The notes under the pieces are model-generated. The model made no database searches. It was not told the origin of the DNA and saw nothing but the letters and a program-made list of their open reading frames with translations. This document shows positions 41,254 to 51,946 of a stretch of DNA of 62,436 bases, piece after piece; position 1 is the first letter of the stretch; each line of letters opens with the position of its first letter. The position numbers and the translations under genes are program-made. The DNA is from Clostridiales bacterium (GTDB lineage: Bacteria; Bacillota; Desulfotomaculia; Desulfotomaculales; VENG01): positions 1 to 62,436 of the forward strand of contig JADQBQ010000023.1 in assembly GCA_016278505.1 (NCBI GenBank), in the 5' to 3' direction.

Positions 41254-41317
41254 TGTTTTCTGGGACAAGGTATTAATCCTTCTGATATATTAATACTGAT
41301 CTCGGAAGGATGCAATG

Positions 41318-41404
41318 AGACGCGGCGATACTTTTTTGGGCACCGAAAGCTGCGTGGAGCAAGTGGTGCAACCGGCCTTCTGAACCTAAGGCTGGTTTTG
41401 TTTT
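41318..41404 (+). ncRNA. Candidate riboswitch-like leader with pseudoknot and terminator
   Basis: CGCGGC (41321-41326) pairs with GCTGCG (41349-41354), and GCACC (41340-41344) pairs with GGTGC (41365-41369). The two helices interleave, forming an H-type pseudoknot. It is followed by a terminator hairpin CCGGCCTT / AAGGCTGG (41372-41395) and TTTTGTTTT. This pseudoknot-then-terminator layout 50 bp before a regulator gene is typical of riboswitches, but I do not recognise the class. It shares three ordered blocks with 44879-44940. Confidence 0.5.
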
Positions 41405-41453
41405 GGCAAGAAGATAGCCAGTCAAAAATTTAGGGGAAGTGAGGGCCATTTTT

Positions 41454-42143
41454 GTGGATAAGATTCGCTTGGTGATTGTGAGTGAGGATTTATATTCACT
41501 GAAAGGACTAACAGCAATTTTTAATACTGAGGATGTATTCGAAGTACTAGGCGGTTTCTCTCTGGGCGAGGCTTTAGAGAATGCAATATCATATCAGCCT
41601 GATGTGGTATTGGTGGATATCCCGGATGACATGATGACAGATTACGGTGATAAAATCGTGGAAATCAAAGGTGGGTGCCCGTGCAGCTTAATTTTGGCCG
41701 TGGTGGGGGAAGAGTACCGTAAGACTCTGGAAGAAGTGTTGAGAAACGGCCTGGATGGCTGCGTGCCCAGGGGGATAATGCGTGGATGTCTGGTTAGAAC
41801 CGTAGAACTTGCCTGTCGTTCGGGATTGCTGTGTCTGCCCCGTTCTTTTAAAAAGGGGGACAATTCCTCGAAGCATACTTCTTCATCCAGTAGTCCCTTT
41901 TGTAGAACTGCTATTCCCGGTCAGGTGGAAACATTGACAAGGCGTGAAGTGGAAATATTACAGTTAATGAGTGAAAATCTTTCCAACCGCAAAATTGGGG
42001 AAAGGCTGTTTATCAGTGAACCAACAGTGAAAACCCATGTGAGTAATATTCTCCGCAAACTGGGACAGAGTAATAGGGCCCAGGCCATAGTATATTCCTA
42101 TAAAATGGGTCTGGTGACCGGAAACGAGCTTGTGGTTAAGTAG
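41454..42143 (+). CDS. LuxR-type regulator with atypical receiver domain
   Basis: 229 aa from the GTG at 41454, 6 nt after GAGGG; an earlier GTG (41439) abuts another purine run. The receiver-like domain keeps an Asp in 'DVVLVDIPDDMM' but lacks the normal acidic pair ('IVSEDLYSL') and the conserved Lys ('GCVPRGIMRG'), so ordinary phosphorylation is doubtful. A Ser-rich linker ('SSKHTSSSSSPF') leads to the LuxR HTH 'LTRREVEILQLMSENLSNR' and 'ISEPTVKTHVSNILRKL'. It likely regulates the neighbouring surface-protein locus. Confidence 0.82.
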   Translation: MDKIRLVIVSEDLYSLKGLTAIFNTEDVFEVLGGFSLGEALENAISYQPDVVLVDIPDDMMTDYGDKIVEIKGGCPCSLILAVVGEEYRKTLEEVLRNGLDGCVPRGIMRGCLVRTVELACRSGLLCLPRSFKKGDNSSKHTSSSSSPFCRTAIPGQVETLTRREVEILQLMSENLSNRKIGERLFISEPTVKTHVSNILRKLGQSNRAQAIVYSYKMGLVTGNELVVK

Positions 42144-42266: not shown

Positions 42267-42563
42267 TGATCATTGTTTCAAGGGCAAGTCTTTGCCTTGG
42301 AGAACTTTGTGCAATTCATACCATTGAATGATAGAAAAATATTTTAAAATGATTTAACATTAATTATGCTCTTTTATTGTTGTTGATATTGTTATACCTT
42401 GAGAAATTTGATTCTAATATAGTTCGCAGGGGATTAAACATAATCGTATGTGCATACACTATTGTGATGTTTTTACATATAAACTGCCTGGTGAAATATT
42501 TAAGTTCCGGGTTATGATTATTTTTTGAATCTGAAATTCAAATTCTGGATGGTGGTGCTTCTG

Positions 42564-43232
42564 TTGCGACTAAAAGCTCTAGCTATATTAGTATGTATTA
42601 CCGTGTTATGTTCCATAACTTGTGGTTTTTTTAAGATTGATGAGAAAGAGTCCAGCAGGCAACCAAATAGAGACTATAAAAAACAAACGAAGGCTTCTAA
42701 CATAATGCCACAACCACTACAAAATAAAGGGCAAAAACCATCGAATGTTAACAGTAATAAAGATTTAGCCAAACAAGAAGAACCAGCAAGGGGAGGCCGT
42801 CAAGACCCTGCCATTATAAAGCAGCGGGTTGCTAAGGAGAAACTGCCTAAATCGCATAAAGAAAAAACTGTAACCGTTAGTGACATTGAAGAACGTTATA
42901 GCCCAAGGTTTTTAGCTCTTAAAGATGAATTTAATGGTGAACTGAATTCATTGATAGTCCAAGGTTTAGAGGAATATGGTACTTATCAGCAAAATAACAT
43001 CGATCCCCCACTAATCAAATTGGTTTTAAAGTATCTTTCATTGGGGAGGGCGTTAGAGGACGAATGTGACCGCAGGTTTAATAATCTTGTAGGTCAAATG
43101 AAGCAGGAACTGTCGGCAAATAGCCTCCCAGTAAACCTAATTAAAAAGGCTGAAAGACAATATGAGAATCAAAAACTACAGGAGAAGAGACAGTTGATTA
43201 AAAACGGCATGAAGTATATCGGTTATCACTAA
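42564..43232 (+). CDS. Membrane-anchored or secreted coiled-coil protein, unknown (paralog of 43340-43864)
   Basis: About 222 aa from a TTG at 42564 behind GGTGGTG; the ATG at 42549 and an upstream TTG at 42525 are also possible. Signal/anchor helix 'LKALAILVCITVLCSITCG', a basic, Gln/Lys-rich disordered stretch (about 30-105), then a helical domain: 'RYSPRFLALKDEFNGELNSL', 'LKYLSLGRALEDECDRRFN', 'MKQELSANSLPVNLIKKAE'. The C-terminal ~70 residues align by eye with the convergent gene at 43340. No family recognised. Part of the sortase neighbourhood. Confidence 0.65.
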   Translation: MRLKALAILVCITVLCSITCGFFKIDEKESSRQPNRDYKKQTKASNIMPQPLQNKGQKPSNVNSNKDLAKQEEPARGGRQDPAIIKQRVAKEKLPKSHKEKTVTVSDIEERYSPRFLALKDEFNGELNSLIVQGLEEYGTYQQNNIDPPLIKLVLKYLSLGRALEDECDRRFNNLVGQMKQELSANSLPVNLIKKAERQYENQKLQEKRQLIKNGMKYIGYH

Positions 43233-43339: not shown

Positions 43340-43864
43340 TTAATCTTTATCCACCAGTTTTTTTCCCTTATTATATAATGTTTGTTTGATACTTCTCTTT
43401 TTTAACCGGTATGCATATTGGGCATGCGCCACTAATTCCAGGGATAGGGACTTGGATTTAAGTTCTCGTTCCATTCTGTTTATGTAATCTTCAAAATGAG
43501 AGTCGTATTTTTCTTCTAGGATTCTCACTTTTCTCATATATTTTCCGGCCAGGGAATGAGGGGATGTGTCAGGGGCTTTAGCTTTGATTACTTGATATTC
43601 TTGGTATGCAGTATGTCCCATATCGGTCAGTTCTTGTCTAAATCTATTTTCCAGTTCAGATATATAGTATTTGCAATCCCGGGCAATGTCATGTTCTACA
43701 GGGCAGGATATTAAATCCGTTTGCTGGCCCAAAAAATAGTTCTTTTGTTCCATCCTGGTTCTTTCAGTTTCAATCTTAGGCATAAATGTGACCCCTGAAT
43801 AGATAATTAGCGCTATGAACAAGTATACTAAGAATAAAGAAAACGGTATTTTAAAGCGTCTCAT
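43340..43864 (-). CDS. Membrane-anchored coiled-coil protein, unknown (paralog of 42564-43232)
   Basis: 174 aa, ATG behind GGAG with 8-nt spacing. N-terminal TM ('IPFSLFLVYLFIALIIYSG'), then an extracellular helical domain: 'CKYYISELENRFRQELTDMG' and 'KYMRKVRILEEKYDSHFED', then 'MERELKSKSLSLELVAHAQ'. The same spacing of K-Y-[LM]..R.LE...D..F and M..EL...SL...L..[KA]A is seen in the other paralog. Lies 54 bp downstream of the archaeosortase-like gene on the same strand, so it is probably co-transcribed with it. Unknown function, likely outside the cell. Confidence 0.68.
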   Translation of the reverse strand: MRRFKIPFSLFLVYLFIALIIYSGVTFMPKIETERTRMEQKNYFLGQQTDLISCPVEHDIARDCKYYISELENRFRQELTDMGHTAYQEYQVIKAKAPDTSPHSLAGKYMRKVRILEEKYDSHFEDYINRMERELKSKSLSLELVAHAQYAYRLKKRSIKQTLYNKGKKLVDKD

Positions 43865-43918: not shown

Positions 43919-44788
43919 TTAACCTGAAGGAGGATGCTTCATAGCCCATTTTGAATGCTTACTGGCAAAAAGAAAGTACACGCTTACAAAAACCAGGTAC
44001 CAAAGAGGAAATAATACATAAATGGTCCAGAAATGAGCACTCCACAGGACATCTTCCCCGGCCAGGTGCCCGGAAGCAGCAATTATAACGATGCGGACAA
44101 TGTTTTGCAGCCAGGTCCCGGCTACGCCGAATATTAACAGCGGTAATGCCCGGGACCATTCTATCTTTACGTCCAGCATCATCAGGGTAAATATGGCAAT
44201 AAAAACGGCCATGGTGGCAGGCCCTGCGCAGGCGCCGGTTACCAGCACGGATATGGTTTCCCCGCTGGGATCGGGAAAACTTAATATCTGGCCGGATTTA
44301 GATACAGGTATGTCCAAAAGATTAGCGAGCCAGGTGGCTGGTATGACTGAGCCCATTGCGTACGGGGTATCTGCAAATTTATCAACCAGGAGGGGAAAGA
44401 CAATGGTAAAAGCATAAGTGTTGAAAAGTATAAAGGGTACTAGCGCGCCCTGGCCAAACATAATCATAAAAAGACCCAACCAGGTTAGGGAGAGCTTAAC
44501 AACCATATAATCAATATTATGGGGAACATAAAAAGCTAGTAGTATAAAAGATGCTCCCGCTATAAAAAAGAGTGGATTATTATTTCGATCCATCTTTGCC
44601 GCGATTTCTTTCCGTTTTAGAATAATCCAAATAACACAAAGAGTAAGCACGCCCCAGGGGGCAGCATTATGCTGGCCAATTATATAATCATATGAAATGG
44701 CATTTGACAGTTGTGCGAAGTTATCCTGTAGGTGCAGGGCACTGGTTAGGCCACTTAACAGAAAATATGTTATTAACCTTTTTTTCAT
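43919..44788 (-). CDS. Exosortase/archaeosortase-like transpeptidase
   Basis: 289 aa with about 8 TM helices. The invariant triad of the exosortase/archaeosortase family is present in order: Cys187 in 'VLVTGACAGPATMAVFIA', Arg232 in 'GVAGTWLQNIVRIVIIA' and His252 in 'LWSAHFWTIYVLF'. By family it cleaves a C-terminal tripartite sorting signal and attaches the protein to a membrane or wall acceptor. The probable substrate is the PEF-CTERM-tailed SLH protein, encoded divergently (45289). Such enzymes are common in archaea and Gram-negatives but unusual in spore-forming Firmicutes (recalled knowledge). Confidence 0.82.
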   Translation of the reverse strand: MKKRLITYFLLSGLTSALHLQDNFAQLSNAISYDYIIGQHNAAPWGVLTLCVIWIILKRKEIAAKMDRNNNPLFFIAGASFILLAFYVPHNIDYMVVKLSLTWLGLFMIMFGQGALVPFILFNTYAFTIVFPLLVDKFADTPYAMGSVIPATWLANLLDIPVSKSGQILSFPDPSGETISVLVTGACAGPATMAVFIAIFTLMMLDVKIEWSRALPLLIFGVAGTWLQNIVRIVIIAASGHLAGEDVLWSAHFWTIYVLFPLWYLVFVSVYFLFASKHSKWAMKHPPSG

Positions 44789-44878
44789 ACTTATCCTCCC
44801 GAACCGTAGTTGTTTTTATACTCTATTAGATGGTAAACGAGGAATATCCTTCTAATAAATGTCATTTTTTACTTATGA

Positions 44879-44940
44879 GGCGATTTTGCTTGGCGTTCTT
44901 GTTGCCCGAAAGGCTGTAGGTATCAGGCTGGTTTTGCCGG
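44879..44940 (+). ncRNA. Second candidate structured leader, upstream of the SLH gene
   Basis: Shares with 41318-41404, in the same order, GGCGAT, then CCGAAAG(G)CTG..GG (44906-44920), then the exact 12-mer AGGCTGGTTTTG (44925-44936). It lies 350 bp before the SLH/PEF-CTERM gene on the same strand. Local pairing such as GCC-CGAAA-GGC is possible. The rest of 44789-45288 shows no gene; TATATT near 45228 may be a -10 element. Confidence 0.4.
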
Positions 44941-45288
44941 GTCTATATTACTTATCTTACGGAGACACTTGGTTGTGGTTGCATTTACGGCATCATACAA
45001 AAGCATGAGTAAAAGAATATACCTGCACGAAATGTGTACGGAATCGCCCAGTTATTCAGATCAAAGAACTAGGCCATCAAGTACTTTATTCATACTTATG
45101 TAGGATGGGAAAACATACCGGTTAGGGGACATTGCTTGCATTAGACACTCTACTTCTTTTGGTTGTCAAGGACAATTCGGTGGTGGTGAATCATCCCTAT
45201 GGCTGATTTATTTTAAATATTTTTATGGTATATTTTGTTGGATGCACTGGACGATATTTTTACTATGTGTTTATACGAGGGGTGTGAA

Positions 45289-46878
45289 ATGAGATTGGGA
45301 AGAAAGGCCACTGCTGTTTTAGTCTTGGCCGTATTAATGACTCTGATTTTCTCAGCAACAGCATTTGCCCAACCGTCTGATATCGAGGGTCATTGGGCAC
45401 AACAACCGATTGAAGAATGGCTGAAAAAAGGCTTTGCAAGTGGATATCCTGATGACACATTCAGGCCTAATCAGGAGGTTTCACGATCAGAGTTTGTGGC
45501 CCTAGTGAACCGTGCCTTTGGCTTTGACTATGAAGGTGTAGCTACCAATTTTAGTGATGTCAATGAAGGAAGTTGGTACTACAAAGAAGTAGGCGTAGCT
45601 GGTGCTGCGGGATATATAGGCGGTTACCGGGATGGCTCTTTTGAGCCCTATAGATCAATCTCGCGACAGGAAGTAGCGTGCATACTGGTAAGATTGCTAA
45701 ATTTGAGATCGTCCACAAAATTGGCCAATTTTACTGACGCAAATGAGATCCCGCAATGGTCTAGGGGCAGTATCGGGGCTGTAGCTCTAAAAGGCTTGAT
45801 GGCCGGATTCCCTGATCAAACTTTTAGAGCCACAAGTAGTATAACCAGGGCTGAGGCAGTGGCATCCCTTGACCGGGCATTGAGACTAATGATTGTGGAA
45901 AGTGCTATTGAGGGTAAAGTATTTCTGGGAAGAGAAGCAGGGAATGACGTAACCATAAAGGTCTTTAAGGCGAATAGCAAAAAGGTGCTGGAGGAAACCA
46001 AAACCGACAGTGAGGGCCGGTATGCAATAAACTTGGAACCAGGGCAATACGATATTACTGCTACCACAGCTAAAGAAGTTGCTTACACATGTGACGTCGC
46101 AGTATATAAAAATAGAATCAGCACAGTAGATCTTTTTTTGGAAGTTGGTGTTGTAATCAGTGGAATTTTACAAGACAGATGGGGAAGAGGAATTGAGGGT
46201 GCCACAGTAATATTTACCACTAATCCCACTTTTGTTACTACCACCATCGAAGAAGGTAGGTTTACTTTAGTAGTGCCCCGTGACCGATTTTATACTGTGC
46301 GTGCGCAAGAACCAGACCATGAAGATGAAGAACCGTTAGTAGTTGCTAGAGAGATTGAAGTTGGTTTAAAGGCGACGCAAGATGTAGGCATCCTTATTAT
46401 CGGAAGACATACCGGTGGTGGCGGTGGATCTACGAGCATGAGTGAATCGATTTCCTGGAATTCTTATTCTGATCCAGAGCGAACTGTACAAACCAGCAAT
46501 TTTTCCGGAGACTCTAACACTGTATACATGGAAGGGAGTAACCTTAAAAGCAATAGTGATTATAAGGTAACATACGTGAATCCAAATGGGGACGAAGTCC
46601 ACGCTCATACTTTTGATAATATAGCTAAAGGAGAAATCGAAAGTAGTTTAAAGTTATCTGATTACCAGAACACAGAATACGGTGTGGCCGGTGAATGGCA
46701 TGCACACCTACTGATGCGAAAATCTGACAGTGGGGACTATGAGGAAGTTGCTAACTGTGCTTTTTATGTTGAGGAGACAGCTATCCCTGAATTTTCCTCT
46801 GTTGTTGCTGCTTTTTTTGTTGTAGCGTCATGTGCTGTCATTTATCTGCTTTTTAGGAGAAGGGCTGCAGTATGCTAA
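45289..46878 (+). CDS. S-layer-homology surface protein with PEF-CTERM-like sorting tail
   Basis: 529 aa from the ATG at 45289 (GAGGGGTG upstream). Signal peptide 'TAVLVLAVLMTLIFSATAFA', then three SLH domains (about 30-80, 88-140, 147-200; e.g. 'IEGHWAQQPIEEWLKKGFAS'), two carboxypeptidase-regulatory-like beta domains (about 205-285 and 286-375), a Gly-rich hinge 'HTGGGGGST', a beta domain (about 385-495) and a C-terminal 'IPEFSSVVAAFFVVASC' hydrophobic helix ending FRRR. The PEF motif (residue 500) plus TM plus Arg cluster is the archaeal PEF-CTERM layout. Carrying both an SLH anchor and a sorting tail is unusual. Confidence 0.85.
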   Translation: MRLGRKATAVLVLAVLMTLIFSATAFAQPSDIEGHWAQQPIEEWLKKGFASGYPDDTFRPNQEVSRSEFVALVNRAFGFDYEGVATNFSDVNEGSWYYKEVGVAGAAGYIGGYRDGSFEPYRSISRQEVACILVRLLNLRSSTKLANFTDANEIPQWSRGSIGAVALKGLMAGFPDQTFRATSSITRAEAVASLDRALRLMIVESAIEGKVFLGREAGNDVTIKVFKANSKKVLEETKTDSEGRYAINLEPGQYDITATTAKEVAYTCDVAVYKNRISTVDLFLEVGVVISGILQDRWGRGIEGATVIFTTNPTFVTTTIEEGRFTLVVPRDRFYTVRAQEPDHEDEEPLVVAREIEVGLKATQDVGILIIGRHTGGGGGSTSMSESISWNSYSDPERTVQTSNFSGDSNTVYMEGSNLKSNSDYKVTYVNPNGDEVHAHTFDNIAKGEIESSLKLSDYQNTEYGVAGEWHAHLLMRKSDSGDYEEVANCAFYVEETAIPEFSSVVAAFFVVASCAVIYLLFRRRAAVC

Positions 46879-47264
46879 AGAGAATTAAGCAGACCAACTT
46901 TAAATGGGTCTATGCGCTGTCCATGGTGGTTTTGGCATCGCTCCTGATGGCAATGGTTTATTATGTCCCTCAGGCCGAAAAAAACTATACCGAAGTTCGC
47001 AGAGCGGAGTTAATAAAAACAAGCAGCGGTTGGGCTTTACAATTTGACATGCTCAATGATGAAGACAGAAAGAAGGAATATACGGTAGTGGTTACAAGTG
47101 ACGGAAGAGAGGTTGACAGGCATGATCTGGTGGTGCACGGGGGGTGTAAGTATAAGTACAGTTTTATTCCCCGGGAAGATGCACAAGGGGTTTCTTTTTC
47201 GGTTTATAACAAGGCGGATTCCACAATAATGGCATCGGATACCTATTATTTATTAAATGATTAA
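46872..47264 (+). CDS. Membrane protein with one TM and an Ig-like ectodomain
   Basis: 130 aa. Its ATG overlaps the end of the SLH gene by 7 nt, implying coupled translation. TM helix 'WVYALSMVVLASLLMAMVYYV', then an ~85-residue beta domain with 'EYTVVVTSDGREVDRHDL' and 'GGCKYKYSF'. The beta domain matches by eye a stretch of the next protein ('RYSFYCNGTKVQSG ... GTKYQYT'), so the two share a fold. No named family recognised; the coupling suggests it assists sorting or assembly of the SLH protein. Confidence 0.7.
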   Translation: MLKRIKQTNFKWVYALSMVVLASLLMAMVYYVPQAEKNYTEVRRAELIKTSSGWALQFDMLNDEDRKKEYTVVVTSDGREVDRHDLVVHGGCKYKYSFIPREDAQGVSFSVYNKADSTIMASDTYYLLND

Positions 47265-47281
47265 TTGGGTGGTTAATACAC

Positions 47282-47980
47282 ATGGGAGAAAAAGTGAGTC
47301 GATATAAGTTTAAGGTATTAATATTGTGGGTAGCAATCTTTTTGGCCGGTGTTTTTTTGATGGGAATTTATTATTCTTCGTTGCCGATAACTTTAACAGT
47401 GCTGCCGGAGGCTCCTAAAGAAGGGGACCCGGTGATTGCCCTTTTTTCTCTGAATAACCCTTTGCCTTCCGAGCAGAAAGTGAGGTATTCGTTTTATTGC
47501 AATGGCACCAAAGTACAGTCAGGATATGTCACACTGGCCGCGCTTTCCGGAACCAAATACCAGTATACGTCCAAGAATAACCTAAATGTTGGTGAGCAAC
47601 AAAATTATACCGTTCGAATGAATACATCTTTCGGTAACTTTGAAAAAAATGCCTCGGTGCCTGCTTACCCACCACAGATATTTTGCAGTTTTACATCCTT
47701 TGCCTCTTTTTCAACATCGGTAATGAGTTTTATGACCAGTGCACCTTACTATGATACTACCTTTGCAGCAAATGAGGGACTCAATGTGGGTCTCTTTTGT
47801 TCACTGGTGCTTATTGCCTTATTAATTTTCCTGGAACTATCCGAGCCTTTGATTGCTGTGGACGGTACGCGGGTATCCCTTTTTAAGCTGAGAGTCAGGT
47901 TTAGTACAATTACCTGGATATTGTTGACCATATTCCTGGGTATAGTTTTTACAAAAGTGACTATGATTTTAGCCGCGTAA
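47282..47980 (+). CDS. Multi-pass membrane protein with Ig-like ectodomain
   Basis: 232 aa. TM1 'VLILWVAIFLAGVFLMGIYY', extracellular beta domain (about 40-130; 'LNNPLPSEQKVRYSFYCNG', 'SGTKYQYT'), a Ser/Phe-rich stretch, then two TMs ('GLFCSLVLIALLIFLEL' and 'ITWILLTIFLGIVFTKV'). The ectodomain resembles that of the preceding gene and, loosely, domains in archaeal membrane proteins. Tightly spaced (17 bp) in the SLH-protease operon. Function unknown. Confidence 0.68.
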   Translation: MGEKVSRYKFKVLILWVAIFLAGVFLMGIYYSSLPITLTVLPEAPKEGDPVIALFSLNNPLPSEQKVRYSFYCNGTKVQSGYVTLAALSGTKYQYTSKNNLNVGEQQNYTVRMNTSFGNFEKNASVPAYPPQIFCSFTSFASFSTSVMSFMTSAPYYDTTFAANEGLNVGLFCSLVLIALLIFLELSEPLIAVDGTRVSLFKLRVRFSTITWILLTIFLGIVFTKVTMILAA

Positions 47981-47996
47981 GGGAGAGGTTAAGTGA

Positions 47997-49052
47997 ATGG
48001 AAATACCCATGAGGACCATATCAGAACCAGTGATTTCCCCAATGTCAAAGCAGATTAATGGGAATCCCGTTGAGGGACATATGGCTTTGACCCTGGTAGT
48101 TATTTTAGCTGCCAGTGCCTGTGGAGGTGTTTTTGCTTTTTACAGTAAATTGGGGGCTATTATCCTTTCAGTGGCTTTATTCCTTCTCTTGTATCTAGCT
48201 ATTAATATTAAGTTCTCAATCGAAAAAACATTCGTATCACCGGTACAGGTAGTTTTACGGGGAGGGTACGGTTTTCCCCTGCAAATGCCGTATAAAAACG
48301 GGCATATTTTTATCCTGAGCATACTGGCGGCAATAACTACCTGTGAATGGATTTTTGCGTTTCGAAATGTTGCTCTGGGCATAGTGCTTTCATTGGTTTT
48401 AGCAATATTGGTGTATTTTATTGTTTCTGTATTCAAATGGGATCAAGAGTTCGTTAACGCCTCCGAGAGCCTCACTTTGATACCGTTGTATATTCTGTTT
48501 ACCTCATCATTGCCATGGTTTTTTTTGGCCACGGAAGTTCGCCTGCCTGCTGTATACAGCATAATCATAGCGTTGTGTGCTTGGCACATATACCAGCGTG
48601 GGTTGCAACTAAAGGATTTGGGGTTTAAGCGGGAGAATCTCCTGCCCGTGCTACTTTTAGGAGTTGTTCTGGGAGTACAGGTAGGTATGATTGAGTTTTT
48701 TGTTATTAATGTAGAGCCTATGTATCCTGGTTTTTCGGTGGTCTATCTACTGCGGGATTTTTTCTATATGCTACTTTTTGTTGGCTTGGCAGAGGAAGTT
48801 CTTTTCCGCCGAATTATCCAAAGGGACTTAATCAAAATTTTCGGCTACCATGAGGGCATATTTTTACAGGCAGCTTTATTCGGTGTGATGCATTTAACTT
48901 GGCGTTCCAATTTGGAGCTTTTTTTTACCTTCACGGTAGGTCTTGTGTTGGGGTACTTTTACGAACGCACCGGGAATTTAACCGGCCCGGTTGTAATGCA
49001 CGGGGTTGGTAACACTATGCTGGTGGCGGTGATGCCCTATATAGTTAGTTAG
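47997..49052 (+). CDS. CPBP family intramembrane metalloprotease
   Basis: 351 aa, ATG behind GGGAGAGG, with about 8-9 TM helices. CPBP/Abi (Rce1-like) motifs: 'LAEEVLFRRIIQRD' (EExxxR), 'ALFGVMHLTW' (His) and 'GPVVMHGVGNTMLVA' (HxxxN). A glutamate intramembrane protease. As the last gene of the SLH operon it may process the sorted protein or its remnant tail. It could also modify a prenyl-linked acceptor, but that is speculation. Confidence 0.83.
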   Translation: MEIPMRTISEPVISPMSKQINGNPVEGHMALTLVVILAASACGGVFAFYSKLGAIILSVALFLLLYLAINIKFSIEKTFVSPVQVVLRGGYGFPLQMPYKNGHIFILSILAAITTCEWIFAFRNVALGIVLSLVLAILVYFIVSVFKWDQEFVNASESLTLIPLYILFTSSLPWFFLATEVRLPAVYSIIIALCAWHIYQRGLQLKDLGFKRENLLPVLLLGVVLGVQVGMIEFFVINVEPMYPGFSVVYLLRDFFYMLLFVGLAEEVLFRRIIQRDLIKIFGYHEGIFLQAALFGVMHLTWRSNLELFFTFTVGLVLGYFYERTGNLTGPVVMHGVGNTMLVAVMPYIVS

Positions 49053-51619: not shown

Positions 51620-51946
51620 CAGTTGCATGAGCAAAGAAAAGCCTTGATGGGAAGTAGTAAACAATGTAACTGTCAGAGAGCCACCGGTTGGTGTGAGGTG
51701 GTCAGCCAAGTTGTTGAACTCGTCCCGGAGCTGTTTGGAGGAAATCATTATTCCAGACCGGCAGGTGACCGTTATCACTGTGAGCGGGTAAAGATATGGG
51801 GATGTAGCTCAGCTGGGAGAGCGCCTGAATGGCATTCAGGAGGCCAGGGGTTCGAGCCCCCTCATCTCCACCAGTATTGTCTTTACCAAATAGGGTGGTA
51901 CCGCGAGATAAACCTCTCGTCCCTTCATGGGATGAGGGGTTTTTTT
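51620..51946 (+). ncRNA. Leucine T-box riboswitch with an embedded tRNA gene
   Basis: Stem I carries the distal-loop block AGAGAGCCACCGGTTGG with TGTGAGGTGG (51676-51703) and the specifier region GAACTC-GTCCCGGAG, specifier CUC (Leu) at 51719-51721. Stem III is GGTAAAGA (51787-51794) pairing perfectly with TCTTTACC (51880-51887); the whole tRNA-Ala lies in its loop. The T-box sequence AGGGTGGTACCGCG (51892-51905) has UGGU for an ACCA end. The terminator CCTCTCGTCCC / GGGATGAGGGG plus T7 ends at 51946. It reads through when uncharged tRNA-Leu binds. Confidence 0.9.
51798..51873 (+). tRNA. tRNA-Ala (anticodon GGC), inside the T-box leader
   Basis: 76 nt with encoded CCA. Acceptor GGGGATG / CATCTCC (one G-U), D arm GCTC-AGCTGGGA-GAGC, anticodon stem CCTGA/TCAGG with loop ATGGCAT (anticodon GGC), T arm AGGGG-TTCGAGC-CCCCT, discriminator A. 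It has no promoter or terminator of its own. Without it, Stem III of the T-box would close on a 9-nt loop (TAT + GTATTG). Confidence 0.96.

Follow-up and report, generated by a model that had tools for sequence, protein, structure and literature searches.

What does an exosortase-like gene do when it stands opposite an operon for an SLH-domain surface protein, two small membrane proteins and an intramembrane protease? This question was raised by positions 43,919–49,052 of contig JADQBQ010000023.1 (Clostridiales bacterium, assembly GCA_016278505.1), of which the whole stretch of 62,436 nucleotides was analysed and is referred to here as the window. An original prediction had described the locus as an archaeal-style protein-sorting system with the layout of PEF-CTERM in a spore-forming Firmicute. 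What held up was a locus for surface sorting that carries a sortase-like enzyme of its own (SORT), a PEF-like tail on the substrate, a CPBP protease and two membrane proteins (M1 and M2) and is shared with archaea. Neither of the outcomes named beforehand as refuting was observed: the catalytic triad is present, and relatives of the substrate retain the tail. We lean towards reading it as a five-part system for the maturation of surface proteins that would use two enzymes and make two cuts.

By its sequence, SORT belongs to the exosortase/archaeosortase superfamily, with tail cleavage or transpeptidation as its predicted activity. It passed the superfamily models PF09721 (50.3 bits, cut-off 25.7) and TIGR04178 (32.8 bits, cut-off 23) and was the sole match to either model in the window genome; none of the named exosortase models was passed, the best being ArtC (TIGR03762; 47.4 bits, cut-off 100). 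The three residues singled out by the original prediction, C187, R232 and H252, were invariant in all 13 rows of an alignment of the window enzyme with 12 relatives, and in a wider set of 28 sortases the Cys and Arg were kept in every sequence and the His in 24. In a Chloroflexota genome, SORT and a tailed substrate were fused in one open reading frame (ORF) of 670 aa (L060:8968–10977), which is possibly a stop codon lost through assembly error.

With a profile built from a three-sequence alignment, 13 sortase loci were found; a search of genome contigs with the single window sortase as query returned no matches. The loci belong to metagenome-assembled genomes (MAGs) of Peptococcaceae, of Chloroflexota/Dehalococcoidia and of archaea titled Methanophagales, Methanosarcinales and Candidatus Argoarchaeum, and they are partly non-independent (L055 and L062 come from one genome, L057 and L058 are near copies). 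In line with the neighbourhood conservation that had been proposed as a check, CPBP was found on the same stretch as SORT in 12 of the 13 loci, the exception being a 4.4-kb contig, and M1 and M2 in nine each; the loci missing CPBP, M1 or M2 include short contigs, and in the genome of L057 (G497) M2 lay on a separate contig. When M2 was taken as the starting point, SORT was present in 16 and CPBP in 17 of 20 stretches (L137, L144, L147–L164). The closest full parallel was Peptococcaceae BRH_c4a (L017/L063), where an SLH-AIPEF substrate, the sortase, a second, IPEL-tailed protein, M1, CPBP and M2 form a single run, and AIPE-tailed substrates were common among the loci of sortase relatives. Flanking genes shared by L057, L059 and L208 support residence in archaea, although these are contigs of MAGs. 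Because the gene set turns up again in other genera, in other phyla and in both domains, it is more than a group of chance neighbours, and the system is not peculiar to a Firmicute, as had been supposed, since Chloroflexota and archaea have it too.

M2 matches at E ≤ 0.001 were obtained in 5 of 398 genomes of a sample of the window's phylum (strong only in G000 and G218), in 13 of 113 genomes of its class (full-length in G000, G015 and G028, C-terminal pieces in the others), and in 7/58, 16/237 and 9/343 genomes of the classes of G497, G498 and G502, respectively. Among other class members with a PF09721 match, the system was seen only in G015 and on contig C49 of G028, the matches in G012, G027, G034, G057, G028:C66 and G092 being other exosortases. 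Four of these (L018, L019, L020 and L022, from G027, G057, G034 and G028:C66) represent another exosortase-like family that adjoins a membrane protein of ~440 aa; a ~1100-aa protein accompanies it in L018, L020 and L022, and LPDxGDI motifs occur in or beside it in L018 and L019. Decayed copies of the gene set were also observed: G016 retains fragments of M1, CPBP, M2 and SORT (L190, G016:C51), and a C-terminal sortase fragment (L138:10099–10287, G015:C38) lies beside a substrate, M1, CPBP and M2 set.

The part of the substrates that stayed constant was the pre-tail domain together with the tail. Twenty-four substrate tails aligned without gaps to the pattern [AIL][IVL]PE[FLV][PS]-x11-C-x3-[YF], followed mostly by W, M and basic residues. 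The Cys, missed by the original prediction, lies within the helix 13 residues past the Phe of AIPEF and occupied a single column in 19 of the 24 tails, as against 3 Cys in the 408 other helix cells. It was present in all 18 tails with F and in one of the six without, these rows being related by descent. When the ORFs of all loci were scanned with a strict version of the motif, 20 distinct tails were retrieved, whereas five shuffles gave no match; 19 tails were members of the aligned set and the remaining one was a short ORF in L062. The N-terminal parts differed: SLH domains in the window substrate (three, 106.8 bits) and in that of BRH_c4a, RCC1 repeats in a second substrate of the window genome, cadherin-like/immunoglobulin-like (Ig-like) domains in L055 and beta-propeller repeats in L138, while a Pfam scan of 10 substrates gave no match at E ≤ 1e-5 for five, one of these only in part. 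Judged by these architectures, SLH domains are not general to the substrates and do not define the system, contrary to what the original prediction had implied.

A profile of the substrates matched exactly two proteins in the window genome, the SLH protein and C2:31397–31897. The latter is part of a second substrate, M1, CPBP and M2 set without SORT, also overlooked before, so that this genome has one such sortase and two sets. The two CPBPs fall in separate parts of the CPBP tree, so that a recent duplication does not appear to have given rise to the two sets. Of the two substrates, only the SLH protein adjoins SORT.

M1 and M2 matched no family above cut-off in model scans, and their profiles matched each other (hhalign probability 90.9, E 1.1e-6), in agreement with the Ig-like ectodomain they had been proposed to share. 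The structure model of M1 (mean predicted local distance difference test score 89.7) consisted of a transmembrane (TM) helix and an Ig-type sandwich, whose best structure match (Z 12.2, root-mean-square deviation (rmsd) 2.3, 94 aligned residues) concerns a common fold. That of M2 comprised a TM helix, a CARDB-like Ig sandwich, a low-confidence stretch with the conserved PPQxxxSFxSFASFST motif and two further TM helices; compared with the PDB over the Ig domain only (residues 34–131), it matched 3idu (Z 11.9, rmsd 2.2, 95 aligned). No similarity was found between the pre-tail domain and M1 (hhalign probability 0.3). Short stand-alone proteins that resemble the C-terminal third of M2 also occur; CPBP lay within ~5 kb of them in seven of 10 stretches (L071, L078, L138, L145, L197, L198, L199), and no CPBP was found on the other three (L200–L202). 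From this we infer that the C-terminal part of M2 may be a CPBP partner. The CPBP itself passed PF02517 (65.5 bits, cut-off 22.4), and its catalytic motifs EExxxR, H and HxxxN were kept in 30 of 30 sequences.

M1 also resembles the C-terminal part of DUF1616, to which Pfam assigns no function: it scored 12.1 bits with PF07760, below the cut-off of 31.6, and a profile-profile comparison with three DUF1616 proteins gave a probability of 88.9 (E 2.4e-6). DUF1616 proteins likewise adjoin CPBP, and differ from M1 by an extra multi-TM N-terminal half. Some of these pairs lie near other archaeosortase-like genes, and DUF1616 genes stand beside CPBP in L203 and L214; the company of CPBP and an M1-like domain is thus a more widespread theme around archaeosortase-type genes.

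In the maturation system that we favour, the signal peptide would direct export of the substrate and the C-terminal tail would hold it, with AIPEF outside, one helix in the membrane and Arg/Lys inside. On the outer face, Cys187 of SORT would attack close to AIPEF, and the enzyme would hand the new C terminus of the substrate to an acceptor, which is probably a membrane lipid. Together with M1 and M2, CPBP would cut a second time, within the membrane, in the tail or in what is left of it, most simply close to the helix Cys or on the leftover helix. The Ig domains of M1 and M2 would face outside, with the C-terminal helices of M2 as the CPBP-linked part. We infer the two cuts, the order in which they occur, the acceptor and the role of M1 and M2 as CPBP partners or substrate holders; the pairing of sortase as enzyme with AIPEF tail as signal is the firmest element of this proposal and the target of CPBP the least firm. 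A more tentative extension, to which we give rather less credence, is that one tag serves two unrelated intramembrane enzymes, the exosortase reading AIPEF outside and CPBP reading Cys-x3-Tyr inside, with M1 and M2 as dedicated partners.

Several observations weigh against the favoured maturation system. In four of the 28 sortases, all Methanosarcinia-type (such group names were assigned here from titled genomes used as centres), Glu replaces the catalytic His. L137 and L213 have SORT, M1 and M2 and no CPBP on the stretch read. The tail Cys is absent from five of the 24 tails (L158; L066 and L140, both from one genome; L162; L163), and the Methanosarcinia-type cassettes keep CPBP, M1 and M2 but have PEF tails without Cys at the helix position, which shows that it cannot be a requirement of all these CPBPs; the helix Cys as a general CPBP requirement was rejected on this ground. 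Finally, CPBP with DUF1616 was also found without this sortase, so CPBP may serve a role apart from sorting.

Among the alternatives, one that we consider unlikely, though less so than the others, makes CPBP the main sorting enzyme. As in myxosortase systems, the tail Cys would be lipidated and CPBP would cut beside it, leaving SORT a secondary task such as trimming or transfer. The likeness to the CPBP sorting enzymes MrtX, MrtJ and MrtS lies in the CPBP/Rce1-like family with its catalytic residues and in the theme of an invariant tail Cys, on which, according to PMC11980579, myxosortase cleavage depends; in the window genome, moreover, each substrate set comes with a CPBP of its own while SORT is not duplicated, and MrtS and MrtJ were the best CPBP models. 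However, the window CPBP stayed below the cut-offs of MrtS (46.3 of 130 bits), MrtJ (45.6 of 75) and Mrt_core (35.6 of 100), the tail Cys lies deep in the helix toward the inner side whereas that of MYXO-CTERM precedes the TM helix (same source), and some cassettes keep CPBP without the tail Cys. CPBP here also stands beside an exosortase, whereas MrtX, as described in that paper, cleaved its target upon expression in E. coli.

Distinctly unlikely is a regulated-proteolysis signalling unit, in which M1 and M2 would detect conditions outside the cell, while CPBP and SORT would cut the surface protein for release or signalling rather than anchoring. The modelled ectodomains of M1 and M2 do look like those of sensors or scaffolds, and cyclic di-GMP (c-di-GMP) riboswitches occur near related CPBP modules and near the window locus (see below), but the substrates are built of surface-binding or repeat domains, as is typical for proteins on display, and they end in a sorting-type tail.

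We consider it very unlikely that an ordinary archaeal ArtC/PEF-CTERM system (TIGR03762/TIGR03024) has moved into bacteria. The common ground is the exosortase superfamily, with ArtC as the top exosortase model for SORT, a tail of P-E-F, helix and basic end, and archaeal SORT relatives with 43–45% identity. Yet the ArtC cut-off was reached by none of the 13 SORT rows, and the window tail, with AIPEF and a helix Cys-x3-Tyr, scored only 16.0 bits with PEF-CTERM as a protein and, when the genome was searched, 21.7 bits, both below the cut-off of 23; of the models proposed as checks with the original prediction, those of the enzyme superfamily were passed and PEF-CTERM was not. The two tails of the window genome were its only PEF-CTERM matches at E ≤ 10, 10 of 10 other substrates gave none at E ≤ 1, and across 113 genomes of the class there were only sub-cut-off matches, in 33 genomes, the window's being the best. 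True ArtC was above cut-off in 62 of the 237 genomes of the class of G498, an archaeal genome that holds both true ArtC and a SORT-type enzyme. In 20 true ArtC loci, examined with 1.5-kb flanks where the contig permitted, CPBP, M1 and M2 were found in none, and the enzymes scored 18–29 bits with the SORT model, as against about 200–460 for intact cassette sortases. Among 13 more stretches around weaker ArtC matches (L203–L215), L203 and L208 (320 and 299 bits with the SORT model) had CPBP nearby and L213 (245 bits) had M1 and M2, with CPBP absent from the 7.8 kb of this stretch; L205 and L206 (25 and 31 bits) had no CPBP, L212, L214 and L215 had CPBP and no SORT-model match, and L204, L207, L209, L210 and L211 had neither. 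In the sortase tree, SORT was separated only weakly from true ArtC (88/52), with two EpsH rows unsure; as to the direction of transfer between domains, three label changes were counted in the sortase tree and two in the CPBP tree, of which strongly supported branches force only one. Judged by these model scores below cut-off and by true ArtC loci without the partner genes, the system is not classical ArtC/PEF-CTERM, contrary to the original prediction.

That only the sortase and the tailed protein belong together and the rest are chance neighbours, for which the variation of gene order and strand between loci might speak, is scarcely credible given that the same families co-occur across phyla and two domains. 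ArtA/PGF-CTERM of Haloferax volcanii shares the enzyme superfamily and offers a likely analogy in tail cleavage followed by prenyl-lipid attachment; it differs in its tail, and the text available from PMC11980579, the source of this description, mentions no CPBP, M1 or M2 partner. In literature titles and the openings of abstracts, no description of the combination of exosortase, CPBP, M1 and M2 was found; a mention in PMC3256604 or PMC10810001 (Haft 2012, 2024) is possible.

Features of the sorting locus in the window.
Feature	Position	Strand	Remarks
SORT, exosortase/archaeosortase-superfamily enzyme	43919..44788	-	289 aa; C187/R232/H252
Substrate: signal peptide, 3 SLH, carboxypeptidase-regulatory-like domains, pre-tail domain, AIPEF tail	45289..46878	+	
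Pre-tail domain	46426..46779	+	kept in substrates of bacteria and archaea
Sorting tail: AIPEF, hydrophobic helix, RRR	46780..46875	+	
Tail Cys codon	46831-46833	+	Tyr four residues on
RRR of the tail	46855-46863	+	
M1: N-terminal TM helix and Ig-like ectodomain	46872..47264	+	130 aa
M2: TM helix, CARDB-type Ig ectodomain, PPQxxxSFxSFASFST stretch, two C-terminal TM helices	47282..47980	+	232 aa
CPBP (Rce1-like) intramembrane protease	47997..49052	+	351 aa; EExxxR / H / HxxxN motifs

The genes lay where the original prediction had placed them, with SORT facing a rightward operon in the order substrate, M1, M2 and CPBP; the substrate and M1 genes overlap by 7 bp, and the following gaps measure 17 bp (M1–M2) and 16 bp (M2–CPBP). 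The SORT start at 44788 is preceded by a clear ribosome-binding site, GGGAGGATAAGTATG. For the substrate, the ORF list gives a TTG start at 45235, but the context makes the ATG at 45289, behind GAGGGGTG, the likelier one. The G+C content was 42.7% for the locus and 44.9% for the window, so that composition gives no sign of foreign origin.

The proteins encoded at 42525–43229 (+) and 43340–43864 (-) of the window resemble L017:14665–15324 (= L063:3901–4560; E 2.5e-16 and 3e-6, respectively), which sits near the BRH_c4a cassette; they are possibly extra partners of the system. A c-di-GMP-II riboswitch (41299–41386, +; 56.1 bits, cut-off 53.5) was found directly upstream of a LuxR-type regulator gene (41439–42143), ~2.5 kb from SORT. 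Elsewhere, a c-di-GMP-I riboswitch in L138 (3620–5796) precedes genes for DUF1616, CPBP, a short M2-like protein and an SLH protein, and c-di-GMP-I type riboswitches at L197:791–898 and L199:2109–2215 lie just downstream of CPBP and before a sensor-kinase-like gene. The window also contains a T-box leader (51635–51927, +; 132.2 bits) with a complete tRNA-Ala(GGC) gene (51798–51873) in the helix loop just before the GGGUGGUACCGCG antiterminator element.

The analysis ties an exosortase-type enzyme, a CPBP protease and two unnamed protein families into one conserved unit, present in a bacterium related to Peptococcaceae and also in Chloroflexota and methane-cycle archaea, and this unit offers a handle on two questions, the acceptor of exosortases and the targets of prokaryotic CPBP proteases. 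It also predicts anchored surface proteins in archaea of the Methanophagales/Argoarchaeum type. PEF-CTERM and ArtC domains are reported in PMC5244752 to be absent from ANME-1, as would be expected if detection there used models that this system does not pass. If one tag is indeed read by two enzymes, two kinds of sorting that have hitherto been described separately, the exosortase type and the myxosortase type, would be combined in a single system found across Bacteria and Archaea, including these Methanophagales (ANME-1-type) archaea.

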